From Planctomycetota bacterium (GTDB lineage Bacteria > Planctomycetota > UBA8742 > UBA2392), in the NCBI GenBank assembly GCA_022071975.1, contig JAJVIO010000044.1, forward strand, positions 26,306 through 64,664: a DNA stretch of 38,359 nt. Direction: 5' to 3'. The position numbers were made by a program, and so were the translations under genes. The notes beneath the pieces were generated by a model. It was given only the letters and a program-made list of their open reading frames with translations, had not been told where the DNA came from and did no database searches. Positions within the stretch are counted from its first letter, which is position 1, and each line of letters opens with the position of its first letter. Positions 2,540-20,936 of the stretch are shown here, piece by piece.

Positions 2540-2760
2540 TGGGCGCGGTTGTTGATATCGCCGCCATCGAGAAGCTCAGCGTGGAAGAACGCCTGAAGCT
2601 GATCGAGTTGATCTGGGACACGATCGAGTCCCAGGCACCCGCAATCCCGCGGGAAATCCTTGACGAAATGGAACGCCGCGCGGCCGAAGCCAGGGCCCAT
2701 CCCGAAGGCGGGATGACCCTGGACGAGTTCGAATCGCGTCTGCAGGCATTGCGCAAGTGA
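2539..2760 (+). CDS. Addiction-module antitoxin-like protein (PF09720/TIGR02574 type)
   Basis: 73 residues. It begins with the conserved IEKLSVEERLKLIELIWDTI helix of the small 'putative addiction module component' family, followed by a glutamate/arginine-rich second half. Known members pair with RelE/ParE-type toxins and neutralise them. Here the toxin gene follows at once, its GTG overlapping this gene's stop by four bases (2757-2760). The start overlaps the stop of tatA by one base, so tatA, antitoxin and toxin would be read from one mRNA. No DNA-binding motif is obvious, so autoregulation is uncertain. Confidence 0.85.
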   Translation: MGAVVDIAAIEKLSVEERLKLIELIWDTIESQAPAIPREILDEMERRAAEARAHPEGGMTLDEFESRLQALRK

Positions 2761-3071
2761 GCCGCAAGAACGCGCGCTTTCGCCCGGCCTTCTGGGACGA
2801 TCTGCTGGCCATCTCCGACTGGTATGAAGAGCGGCAGCCCAACCTGGGAGAAGAGTTCAGGCAGGCCTTGCTGTCATGTGTTCACCGCGTCATTCGGAAT
2901 CCTCGCGCATATCGCACGATTTCGGGCCAGATCCGACGGGCTGTCGTCGGCAAGTTCCGACACCTCTTGTTTTTTGAGATCATGGGCGAGTACGTTGTCT
3001 TCCTGGGAGTCGTAGACGGTCGTCGCGATGTCGCGCACTGGCTGAAACGGCGGCAAAAAGGGGAAGCGTAG
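2757..3071 (+). CDS. RelE/ParE-family toxin
   Basis: 104 residues from a GTG start. It has the ParE/RelE outline: an N-terminal basic strand (RFRPAFWDDLLAISDWYEE), two helices (LGEEFRQALLSCVHRV), then strands with RAVVGKFRHLLFFEI and the closing VVDGRRDVAHWLKRR, close to the family signature of a C-terminal R...W/L..R. Family members either cleave mRNA on the ribosome (RelE) or poison DNA gyrase (ParE); the sequence alone does not decide which. It is translationally coupled to the antitoxin by GTGA overlap. The lack of a signal peptide fits a cytoplasmic toxin. Confidence 0.85.
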   Translation: MSRKNARFRPAFWDDLLAISDWYEERQPNLGEEFRQALLSCVHRVIRNPRAYRTISGQIRRAVVGKFRHLLFFEIMGEYVVFLGVVDGRRDVAHWLKRRQKGEA

Positions 3072-3155: not shown

Positions 3156-3242
3156 GCTGGGGTGGCGGAATTGGCAGACGCGCCGGCTTCAGGTGCCGGT
3201 GCCCGCAAGGGCGTGGGGGTTCAAGTCCCCCCCCCAGCACCA
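3156..3242 (+). tRNA. tRNA-Leu (anticodon CAG)
   Basis: An 87-base class II tRNA with encoded CCA. The acceptor stem GCTGGGG (3156-3162) pairs with CCCCAGC (3232-3238), followed by A73 and CCA. The anticodon stem CCGGC/GCCGG holds the loop TTCAGGT, anticodon CAG, reading CUG leucine codons, which dominate in this GC-rich genome. A long variable arm (GCCC GCAA GGGC) and a T-arm with TTCAAGT in a G/C stem complete the fold. It stands alone, between the toxin gene and a perfect hairpin. Confidence 0.95.
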
Positions 3243-3247
3243 ACCAA

Positions 3248-3285
3248 CAACGAAATGACCGCGCTTCCGCGCGGTCATTTCGTTG
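3248..3285 (+). terminator. Perfect 17-bp hairpin after tRNA-Leu
   Basis: Arms at 3248-3264 and 3269-3285 are exactly complementary around the loop TTCC, six bases after the tRNA CCA end. No T-tract follows. It is best read as a terminator or 3'-processing hairpin. Confidence 0.7.
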
Positions 3286-3294
3286 ATGGAAGTG

Positions 3295-3323
3295 CGAAGT
3301 CTGAAGTTCAAAGTCTGAAGTCA
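3295..3323 (+). repeat. Left inverted repeat of the four-helix-bundle cassette
   Basis: 29 bases built from GAAGTCTGAAGT-like units. The reverse complement matches the right copy (3745-3773) at 27 of 29 positions. It lies just after the tRNA terminator and just before the four-helix-bundle gene, so the mRNA ends could pair. Confidence 0.8.
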
Positions 3324-3340
3324 ACCCAGGGGGACTGAAC

Positions 3341-3739
3341 CTGTCGGACAAGCTGATTCCAATCCCGGATCGTTGCTACGAGTTCGCCAAGCGCATTACA
3401 GCTCTATGCGACTGGTTGTTCGAGCGGCCCGGCACATCGCTACGGATGGCTGACCAACTCTTTCGGGCGGGCACGGCCGTTGGGGCGTTGGCCGAAGAAG
3501 CTGTCGGCGGCGAGAGCAAACTGGACTTCATCCATAAGTACGCCATCTCGCGCAAGGAAGCACGGGAAAGTCGCTACTGGCTGCGGCTCGCCCGGGACAC
3601 GGGCAAAATCCCGCCAGTACGCATGAAGGATCTGCTGGATGAAGCAGAACAAATCGTCAGCATCCTCACAGCAACCGTAAAGACCGCACGTAAGAATTAC
3701 GAGCAAGAGAAAGCGAACCGGCGCCGCAAACGGGATTGA
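3341..3739 (+). CDS. Four-helix-bundle protein (TIGR02436 / 23S rRNA intervening-sequence protein family)
   Basis: About 132 residues. Family hallmarks are clear: YEFAKRITALCDWL, then QLFRAGTAVGALAEEA, FIHKYAISRKEARESRYWLRLARD and a basic C-terminus. Relatives are encoded by intervening sequences in 23S rRNA and as free-standing genes; their biochemical role is largely unknown. The frame has no upstream ATG or GTG that gives full length. A TTG at 3416 would delete the first helix. A CTG at 3341, seven bases after AGGGGG (3328-3333), yields a complete protein and is my choice, as a rare start codon. The gene is enclosed by 29-bp inverted repeats at 3295-3323 and 3745-3773. The start is uncertain; the family is well supported. 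Confidence 0.82.
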   Translation: MSDKLIPIPDRCYEFAKRITALCDWLFERPGTSLRMADQLFRAGTAVGALAEEAVGGESKLDFIHKYAISRKEARESRYWLRLARDTGKIPPVRMKDLLDEAEQIVSILTATVKTARKNYEQEKANRRRKRD

Positions 3740-3744
3740 ACTTC

Positions 3745-3773
3745 TGACTTCAGACTTCGAACTTCTGACTTCG
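3745..3773 (+). repeat. Right inverted repeat of the four-helix-bundle cassette
   Basis: 29 bases of TGACTTCAGACTT-type sequence starting five bases after the stop codon. It is complementary to the left copy with two mismatches. It ends immediately before the stop codon of the convergent sigma54 activator. Confidence 0.8.
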
Positions 3774-3779
3774 GAGGCG

Positions 3780-4724
3780 TTAGCCTTCGCCAATTTTATA
3801 GCGCTCAATCTTGTTGTAGAGGCTCTTGCGGGCCAGCCCTAACCGCTTGGCGGCCAGCGTCTTGTTGCCGGCGCAATCGTGCAGCACCATCTTGATCACT
3901 TCAGCCTCGATCTCGGCCATGGTCATGCTGAGCCAGCGGCGGTTGCTGTCCTGCTGCTCGAAGCTGAGCGCCACCCGCTTGTCCAGCGCGTTCAGCGCCT
4001 CGCGCCCCAGGCTGATCCAGCGCACCACAAAGTTCTCGATCTCGCGCACGTTGCCGGGCCACGGGTAGTTCTTCAGCTGCTCGATCACCTCCGGCCCTGG
4101 CTGCTCGGGCTCGATGCCGTAGCGCGCGCCGTGCTTGCGCAGGAAGGCGTCCACCAGCAGCGGGATGTCTTCAATGCGCTGGCGCAGCGGCGGCACACGG
4201 ATCTCGAAGGTGTTGAGGCGGTACAGCAGGTCCGAGCGAAAGTCGCCGGCCTTCACCAGCTGCTCGATCGGTGCGTTGGTGGCGGTGACGATGCGGACGT
4301 TCACCGGGATCGCCTGGGTGCCGCCCAGGCGGCGCACCTCGCGCTCCTGCAGCACGCGCAGCAGCCGCTTCTGGAAGCTGAGCGGGATGTCGCCGATCTC
4401 ATCCAGGAACAGCGTGCCCCCCTCGGCCTGCTCAAACAAGCCGGGGCGGCTTTCGCGGGCGTCGGTGAAGGCGCCGGGCTCATAGCCGAACAGCTCGGAC
4501 TCGATCAGCGCCTCCGGGATCGCCAGGCAACTCTGGCCCACAAAGGGGCTTTCGCGCCGCGCCGACAGTGCGTGAATGGTGCGGGCCACCACCTCTTTGC
4601 CCGCGCCGCTTTCACCCAGGATCATCACCGGGAATTCGGCCTGCGAGAGCTGCTGAATCTGCTGCTTCAACTCGCGCATGCGCGGCGAGTTGCCAACCAC
4701 GTTCGAAAGGGCATCCATGGCCAT
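3780..4724 (-). CDS. Sigma54-dependent transcriptional activator, AAA+ plus Fis HTH, no receiver domain
   Basis: About 314 residues from the ATG at 4724; an ATG six bases further in (4718) is also possible. The AAA+ core has Walker A GESGAGKE (37-44), Walker B GTLFLDE (103-109) and the arginine-finger region FRSDLLYRLN. A C-terminal Fis-type helix-turn-helix (AGNKTLAAKRLGLARKSLYNKI) follows. This family remodels RNA polymerase-sigma54 at -24/-12 promoters. The sigma54-contact loop reads GAFTDA (84-89) instead of the usual GAFTGA. There is no N-terminal receiver, GAF or PAS domain, so control must come from elsewhere, as with PspF. It is divergent from the DUF4919-like gene, with an inverted repeat next to its start. 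Confidence 0.92.
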   Translation of the reverse strand: MAMDALSNVVGNSPRMRELKQQIQQLSQAEFPVMILGESGAGKEVVARTIHALSARRESPFVGQSCLAIPEALIESELFGYEPGAFTDARESRPGLFEQAEGGTLFLDEIGDIPLSFQKRLLRVLQEREVRRLGGTQAIPVNVRIVTATNAPIEQLVKAGDFRSDLLYRLNTFEIRVPPLRQRIEDIPLLVDAFLRKHGARYGIEPEQPGPEVIEQLKNYPWPGNVREIENFVVRWISLGREALNALDKRVALSFEQQDSNRRWLSMTMAEIEAEVIKMVLHDCAGNKTLAAKRLGLARKSLYNKIERYKIGEG

Positions 4725-4741
4725 TGTGTAATAATAACACA
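4725..4741. promoter_or_regulatory. Possible operator: TGTGT-N7-ACACA inverted repeat
   Basis: An AT-rich 17-base inverted repeat abuts the chosen ATG of the sigma54 activator, in the 82-base gap between two divergent genes. Position and symmetry suggest an autoregulatory or shared operator. No sigma54 -24/-12 element (GG-N10-GC with the family's flanks) was recognised beside it. Confidence 0.3.
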
Positions 4742-4806
4742 GCCGGTTCGGCCTGACAGTCCACGATTTGACGTGCGCTTTCGCGGGCACGCGTCACCAT
4801 GAATGC

Positions 4807-20836: not shown

Positions 20837-20936
20837 GAACAGCAAATTGCCAATAACCAGTTTCCAATTTTCAATGTAGACCGCTTGCGGCCGCTTCATT
20901 GGTAATTGGTAATTGGTTATTGGTTAATCGCTGTTC
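20837..20936. repeat. 100-base imperfect inverted repeat between nitroreductase and aroC
   Basis: Outer arms GAACAGC/GCTGTTC (20837-20843, 20930-20936) and inner 27-base arms (20850-20876, 20897-20923; 23 of 27 paired) made of CCAATAACC and ATTGGTAATTGG units surround TAGACCGCTTGCGGCCGCTT. It is strongly AT-rich compared with its surroundings. It may act as terminator for the upstream operon or as a MITE-like insertion. Confidence 0.7.

Follow-up and report, generated by a model that had tools for sequence, protein, structure and literature searches.

Introduction

Intervening sequences (IVSs) of 23S rRNA are framed by complementary ends around an S23p open reading frame (ORF), and in one described case a 28-bp terminal stem closes the insert, two or three tandem heptamers lie just 5' of the S23 ORF and excision takes place by RNase III, the role of such sequences being left open (PMC4990558). 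REPINs are short intergenic hairpins made of two inverted repeats, displaying several types per genome, each of them found beside a resident gene (PMC3116915). The heptameric repeats of Xanthomonas have a 7-nt unit, and an array usually contains some four of them; the arrays are intergenic and in some cases form inverted pairs; together with those of Nostoc they have been studied as G-quadruplex-forming repeats, and the over-representation of heptamer repeats in bacteria was noticed and left without an explanation (PMC4692102). Genes of the S23p/TIGR02436 family occur in many phyla, where they are labelled merely 'four helix bundle protein', without known function. In open-licence PMC, we found no literature that connects these genes as a group with heptad arms; what comes closest is the heptamer remark on a single rRNA IVS (PMC4990558).

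In this work, we analysed a member of this family encoded on a stretch of 38,359 nucleotides (the window; contig JAJVIO010000044.1) from the genome of a Planctomycetota bacterium (assembly GCA_022071975.1, here G000), for which a first-pass annotation made from the letters alone had proposed a free-standing, IVS-like cassette. The window element shares with 23S rRNA IVSs the protein family and the complementary ends around the S23p ORF, and differs from them in lying free-standing between a tRNA-Leu gene and a protein gene, outside rRNA; purifying selection on the protein and gene-less hairpins in the genome are further differing features of the elements reported here. The likeness is nonetheless closer than that annotation had claimed, as both the 28-bp stem and the heptamers before the S23 ORF illustrate, and, going by its published text, the described IVS may represent the same architecture seated in rRNA, 28 bp being equal to four heptads (PMC4990558).

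Compared with the REPIN-RAYT system, the likeness lies in a gene flanked by its own matching repeats and in dispersed gene-less hairpins of the same repeat, whereas the window protein is a four-helix bundle, the element harbors no Y1 (HUH) transposase, and arms of the window type are heptad arrays devoid of a REP-type palindrome, GC-rich palindromes being located at the RAYT loci. MITEs are gene-less derivatives with inverted ends that occur beside a gene-bearing form; the pairing of gene-less and gene-bearing forms is alike, while the present elements differ in their tandem-array arms and in that neither a transposase nor a target-site duplication was seen here. In contrast to Avd of diversity-generating retroelements (DGRs), the window gene has no adjacent reverse transcriptase. 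The heptamers of Xanthomonas, Nostoc and Calothrix are alike in their 7-nt units, a comparison made by description only, and the published account, in the part available, draws no tie to an S23p gene (PMC4692102). We consider the gene a likely member of a class of mobile hairpin elements that has so far gone unrecognised, and the explanation that we favour, with moderate confidence, is a REPIN-like two-part mobile system, constituted by a gene element and by gene-less hairpins of the same heptad type.

Structure of the window element

The whole element spans about 490 bp and consists of a heptad array, a four-helix-bundle gene and an inverted heptad array. The element and the features discussed with it are, in window positions:

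3156..3242, plus strand: tRNA-Leu (CAG), the fixed neighbour marking the insertion site (ARAGORN, Rfam RF00005; same in G001, G002 and G004)
3244..3289, plus strand: terminator-like hairpin 3' of tRNA-Leu (inverted repeat 3244-3264 / 3269-3289, 95%)
3289..3323, plus strand: left arm, five tandem heptads, GAAGTGC, GAAGTCT, GAAGTTC, AAAGTCT and GAAGTCA (repeat search and sequence)
3328..3334, plus strand: likely ribosome-binding site AGGGGGA, a function suggested by its sequence
3341..3739, plus strand: four-helix-bundle gene (TIGR02436 / PF05635, S23p), 132 aa, plausible CTG start (profile matches; G002 orthologue with ATG at the CTG codon)
3740..3774, plus strand: right arm, five inverted heptads (repeat search and sequence)
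3780..4790, minus strand: neighbouring gene, presumably activator-like, its 3' end fixed at the opposite side of the site (identity 92% in G002, 88% in G001, 86% in G004)
20837..20936, strand not assigned: gene-less heptad hairpin of another type, ACCAAT / ATTGGTN (array 20893-20933; hairpin -46 kcal/mol)

An inverted-repeat search of the window recovered the arms as 3295-3323 and 3745-3773, 29 nt long, 93% complementary and 421 nt apart. Within positions 3201-3900, the best 29-nt inverted match at a spacing above 300 nt was 27/29, which confirms the framing originally annotated, and 200 mononucleotide shuffles of the same segment gave a maximum of 21 and a mean of 17.5. The first base of the left arm (3289) is the last base of the terminator-like hairpin, in line with the annotated position directly behind the tRNA terminator, and the right arm begins at the base directly 3' of the TGA stop (3737-3739). 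Both arms are formed by GAAGTNN-type heptads, five per arm. That the repeats are built of short units had been recognised in the first-pass annotation; the key feature, as amended here, is a 7-nt period with an element-specific heptad.

Membership in the S23/IVS protein family, as had been proposed, was corroborated by matches to PF05635 (E 4.6e-16, 59.4 bits, cut-off 33.8) and TIGR02436 (75.3 bits, cut-off 24). The protein is predicted to be an S23-family four-helix bundle (AlphaFold2 pLDDT 94.4; best PDB match 2rld), and among the families listed in the comparison of the model, fold matches outside S23 include Avd of diversity-generating retroelements. No transposase match was obtained in Pfam or NCBIfam, and none to Y1, and the protein displays none of the known catalytic signatures. 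Two CTG codons, at 3335 and at 3341, are candidate starts; because both the ATG of the orthologue at this site in G002 and the N-terminal residue of P0001 (a 98% relative of 132 aa, MSDKL...) align with 3341, this codon is preferred over 3335, and the CTG start suggested earlier is thus plausible, being seen in this genome only. In the predicted RNA fold, the two arms form a stem that encloses the ORF (MFE -195.6, z -4.16, 0/100 shuffles as good), which bears out the expectation that the mRNA ends could form one long closing stem. The window contains no rRNA, its sole Rfam match being tRNA-Leu.

Two adjacent small ORFs upstream of tRNA-Leu (about 2540-3071) resemble what we take to be a type II toxin-antitoxin pair, of which seemingly just a remnant persists in G001. 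Furthermore, the hairpin at 20837-20936, a second heptad element in the window, has matching GAACAGC/GCTGTTC ends.

Heptad arms around other family members

Of the 81 TIGR02436 matches in the GTDB family of the window genome (16 genomes, G000-G015), 78 entered the arm scoring; one of the three left out, L063 (G008), was scored later and displayed no arms (score about 10). Inverted arms with a score of at least 17 frame 64/78 of these genes versus 12/971 random places (spots in the window and at unrelated loci), and the figures at a score of at least 20 are 46/78 versus 1/971. The gene with its flanking repeats, which the first-pass annotation had advised seeking at other loci of related genomes, is therefore found there repeatedly. 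Arms were weak or absent at 14/78 loci, which scored below 17 (two of them below 10). Among periods 4 to 12, period 7 fitted best at 62 of the 64 armed loci, and lag-7 identity reached 0.38 in the left arm zone and 0.40 in the right, with echoes at 14 and 21, far flanks and genes remaining at about 0.25.

The heptad word varies across the family: besides GAAGTCT of the window, AAATTCA, GGTTTTG, ACCAATT, GATTTTG, AGTCGGC, AGGAGGC, AGGTTTC, GGTTGTA, GGTGGCT and others were observed, some of them common to several loci. At the 69 loci scoring at least 15, the median arm match was 32 nt, equal to 4.6 heptads, and G exceeded C in the left arm at 63 of them. A contiguous rule of five fixed and two free positions inside the heptad was tried and dropped (0.88/0.66 vs 0.88/0.68 for permuted phases).

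In a set of named genomes comprising the best 80 of 581 related places, one of which was too short to score, arms of at least 17 were present at 58/79 loci versus 3/632 control places, and period 7 was the best in 58/58. According to the record titles, these loci include members of Cyanobacteria, Bacteroidota, Verrucomicrobiota, Lentisphaerae, Acidobacteria, Nitrospira, Proteobacteria, Sulfurovum and Cloacimonadota. In the wider phylum, arms of at least 17 were found at 8/14 loci, two of the 8 with 8-nt units. The six loci without arms (G019, G020, G031, G032, G038 and G055) have family scores of 54-130 bits and are not just weak family members. Arm units of 8 nt instead of 7 nt around the same gene family were observed at L034 (G030) and L047 (G052). 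G020 (L061; 25 TIGR02436 matches) and G032 (L057; 20 matches) were checked at one locus each, neither with arms, and their genes perhaps constitute a subgroup with another role.

Gene-less hairpins match the resident genes

The recurrence of the same layout at unrelated loci across phyla, together with a tRNA-Leu site that is empty in G001 and otherwise filled in G004, supports the early view of a self-contained cassette rather than an ordinary gene with chance repeats; that view missed a second component, the gene-less hairpins. In 400 kb of G002, we detected 40 period-7 arrays versus 0-2 for each longer period tried (8 to 20), periods 4 and 5 giving 21 and 10. Gene-less hairpins amounted to 15 in this stretch and to 8 in 400 kb of G009, with none in shuffled G002; the G009 count depends on the cut (5 at a score of 15, 8 at a score of 14 with a looser array cut), that of G002 was 15 at both, and since the G002, G009 and G031 stretches were picked where genes were known, the densities lie on the high side.

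When compared with gene arms, the G002 hairpins had a mean best score of 20.8 for those of G002, 21.0 for those of G000 and at most 13.2 for those of other genomes; those of G009 reached 19.4 against their own arms, which ranked first for 7/8, and at most 13.3 against the others. Among 15 genomes, the own genome took a mean rank of 1.9 for G002, whose arm set is the largest and favours its rank, and of 1.75 for G009, to which this does not apply. In the two genomes examined, the hairpin words match the resident genes of the same genome or genus.

Searches by word were also carried out. GAAGT-type gene-less hairpins are present in G000 and G002, and the hairpin at 20837-20936 has a BLAST match to an arm of the G000:C30 gene element. 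The ACCAAT element gave 130 BLAST matches in G000 and 121 in G002, both with such genes, and 11 in G001, 3 in G003 and 2 in G004; these figures refer to matches including flanks, not to loci, and are lower bounds, as 40 of up to 280 candidates were scored per genome. In Symploca SIO1C2, three tandem GAATTTA units had 301 matches (only Anabaena, with 3, among nine other genomes; 0 for the reversed control), and in Scytonema NIES-4073 an AAAAGTC pattern had 26 (0 in nine other genomes), both counts including overlapping matches. In eight genomes lacking the gene, 390 kb contained a single heptad array, versus 93 in the 1.18 Mb taken from seven gene-bearing genomes, among which the density was uneven (G032, 20 TIGR02436 matches, 0/60 kb; G015, 9, 0/20 kb; G042, 1, 1/120 kb; G030, 12, 16/40 kb). 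Repeats occurring widely without the gene, which the first-pass annotation had taken as a sign against its proposal, do exist, yet they match resident genes, a pattern indicative of a REPIN-like system rather than of chance.

The main rival to the REPIN-like reading is an RNA regulon, in which the protein would be a sequence-specific RNA-binding ring, the arms autoregulatory, and the hairpins operator-like sites controlling stability or translation, with no protein-driven movement. Consistent with it, the gene-less hairpins are mostly intergenic (7/15 fall within any ORF of at least 150 aa versus 93% of random 90-bp segments), the arms lie near the ribosome-binding site and the stop codon, the fold matches include Avd of DGR ribonucleoproteins, and TAACTGA heptads 5' of Beggiatoaceae start codons have been interpreted as regulatory (PMC4679880). 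The many matches to an arm only where the matching gene is present fit better with spreading.

The heptad word is tied to the protein

Protein identity and arm similarity were correlated (Mantel r 0.40, 0/1000 permutations, pairs with orthologous flanks left out) in a comparison that used 69 of the 78 loci (arm score of at least 15): the same word was shared by 43% of pairs at 60-80% protein identity (n=30) and by less than 1% of pairs under 50%. Moreover, both arms change together at one locus. Among same-locus pairs with protein identity below 65%, the two arms of one element were more alike than the arms between genomes in 33/36 (0.69 vs 0.40); a looser same-locus comparison over all pairs gave 31/48. 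The occurrence of AAGTCAAAAGGC in the empty G001 site and in the G004 arm had suggested that the target site supplies the heptad, a notion that we abandoned since the word follows the relatedness of the proteins.

These data also bear on whether the arms are passive, slippage-prone simple repeats accumulating beside a harmless gene. Variable repeat numbers and some very long runs, for instance on the Nostoc ATCC 53789 plasmid, are what such a process would leave, but slippage yields no shared heptad in inverted arms, no co-change and no tie between word and protein; with periods 8 to 20 nearly absent and heptad density unequal between genomes with and without the gene, in the stretches sampled, we find this account scarcely credible.

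The dN/dS ratio was 0.03-0.13 in 7/8 computable orthologue pairs and 0.31 in one with few changes; two of the 10 pairs had saturated dS. Purifying selection acts on the proteins, a finding that the regulon reading can also claim.

Site differences between sister species

At the tRNA-Leu site, the element is present in G000 and G002 and lacking in their congener G001, while G004 carries a different, inverted element whose arms are of the AAAAGGC type and whose gene contains a stop; in G003 and G005 the site falls at contig ends. The 470-bp element G002:C3:907051 is missing from G000, G001, G003 and G004, and G000 has there a gene-less hairpin of another word. Similarly, the element G002:C3:856668 is missing from G003 and G004, G000 displaying at that site a long heptad run without a gene. 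The element G000:C30:8857 is missing from G002, G003 and G004 and has left a truncated remnant in G001, and therefore loss is as likely as gain. Upstream of a gene that we take to be cysteine-synthase-like, G012 harbors a gene-bearing GAAGT element, and G000 and G002 a gene-less GAAGT hairpin. Of the 33 merged heptad loci of the G002 stretch, six could be placed in the part of G000 that was compared: four are common to both genomes, one is occupied in G000 by a hairpin with a different word and one has no counterpart there. These differences suggest gain, loss and swapping at the sites compared. Many elements occupy the same locus across genera, seemingly by vertical descent, and movement is therefore slow. 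At the compared sites, which come from diverged sister species, we observed neither a transposition event nor an intermediate nor a target-site duplication, and no close pair of a filled and an exactly empty site was found among them.

For the regulon, a hairpin that in a sister species is missing or replaced by another word at the same site is an awkward result, tempered by the 4/6 loci shared between G000 and G002; weighing both sides, we judge the regulon unlikely, at roughly a one-in-five level of belief. The G012 site bears on a further alternative going back to the first-pass annotation, namely an IVS-like RNA cassette whose arm stem would be cut by RNase III, leaving the cassette neutral in the host transcript, the protein being a passenger or a helper of hairpin-loop entry. 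A site at which one genome has the gene-bearing element and others have a hairpin with heptads of that type but no gene would agree with such a cassette, as would the pairing of the arms in the predicted RNA and the same design in the described rRNA IVS, with its stem, its heptamers before the S23 ORF and its RNase III excision (PMC4990558). Conversely, the 20 loci (of 78) given to Rfam contain no rRNA, so nothing there needs excision, and the match between hairpins and resident genes is left unexplained, which makes this cassette improbable. The possibility that the loci conserved in several genera are rRNA was itself rejected, as these 20 loci gave no Rfam match and one 23S motif had no match in the loci compared with it.

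Y1 transposases and reverse transcriptase

Genes matching PF01797 (Y1) number 28 in G000, 24 in G002 and 16 in G009, with none in G021, which is without heptads, and none in G020. At the RAYT loci fetched, GC-rich palindromes were present at 20/20 and heptad arrays at 0/20, whereas a strict heptad array lies no more than 300 bp away at 70/78 TIGR02436 loci. RAYT loci having palindromes of their own and TIGR02436 loci having heptads, two repeat systems coexist in these genomes with different proteins. The RAYT-type genes of G000, G002 and G009 display conspicuous paired palindromes on both sides (L366-L385).

Movement of the heptad hairpins by Y1 transposases, with the four-helix gene as a passenger, could be argued from the abundance of PF01797 in G000, G002 and G009 and its absence from heptad-free G021, the one of the eight gene-free control genomes for which Y1 genes were counted, and from G020, armless at the one locus checked; a Scytonema heptad element inside an ORF that is presumably Y1-transposase-like could be added. 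The association just described (0/20 vs 70/78) weakens the idea that RAYTs move heptads, and we regard it as very improbable. The Scytonema element lies within that ORF in S. hyalinum (L419) and in two NIES-4073 copies 2.2 Mb apart with similar flanks (L418, L421); an attempt to prove transposition from the two copies failed, as homology continues into both flanks. A reverse transcriptase was found as a single match in 7/11 searched genomes of the family, including G000, where it (PF00078, L364, G000:C17:66204) is on another contig than the window gene.

A proposed REPIN-like two-part system

Under the REPIN-like reading, the protein would assemble into a ring, as its solved relatives do, and its target would be the heptad stem of its own element, bound as RNA or single-stranded DNA, an arm of 4 to 5 heptads perhaps facing one five-subunit ring. 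It would act in trans on the hairpins, helping copies of both element and hairpin to spread. The protein has no transposase match, so the copying or moving step could be provided by host replication or repair, or by the one reverse transcriptase of G000. The S23 intervening sequence of 23S rRNA would then be a version of the element that has settled in rRNA.

A broader version is also conceivable, to which we give slightly less than even weight: these would be pan-bacterial selfish two-part elements in which a pentameric ring reads a clade-specific 7-nt word, present in 4 to 5 copies in each arm, and spreads its own gene together with gene-less hairpins; both the rRNA intervening sequences and the cyanobacterial and xanthomonad heptamers would be footprints of such elements. 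One architecture would thereby join S23p genes, rRNA intervening sequences and heptamer repeats, with the rule that each protein should bind the heptad framing its own gene. If true, this would constitute a second REPIN-like system in bacteria, independent of RAYT transposases and with a coevolving protein-repeat code.

Plasmid copies and long heptad runs

Carriage by phages was limited to 1 weak match in 50,697 records. Heptad arms were present at 10/10 plasmid loci examined as an independent set (scores 18.4-39), taken from 25 plasmid records with a relative, and the plasmid copies include those of a spirochaete, a clostridium and a Chloroflexota. Some plasmid four-helix genes with heptad arms are located inside defence operons (cas2/cas1, hsdS/hsdR, helicase/N6-methylase and drmD/pglX; L446, L448, L453, L454 and L455). 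Very long heptad runs, like expanded arms or minisatellites, were observed at L447 (Nostoc sp. ATCC 53789 plasmid), L218 (Thiohalocapsa) and G000:C10:94583-94944.
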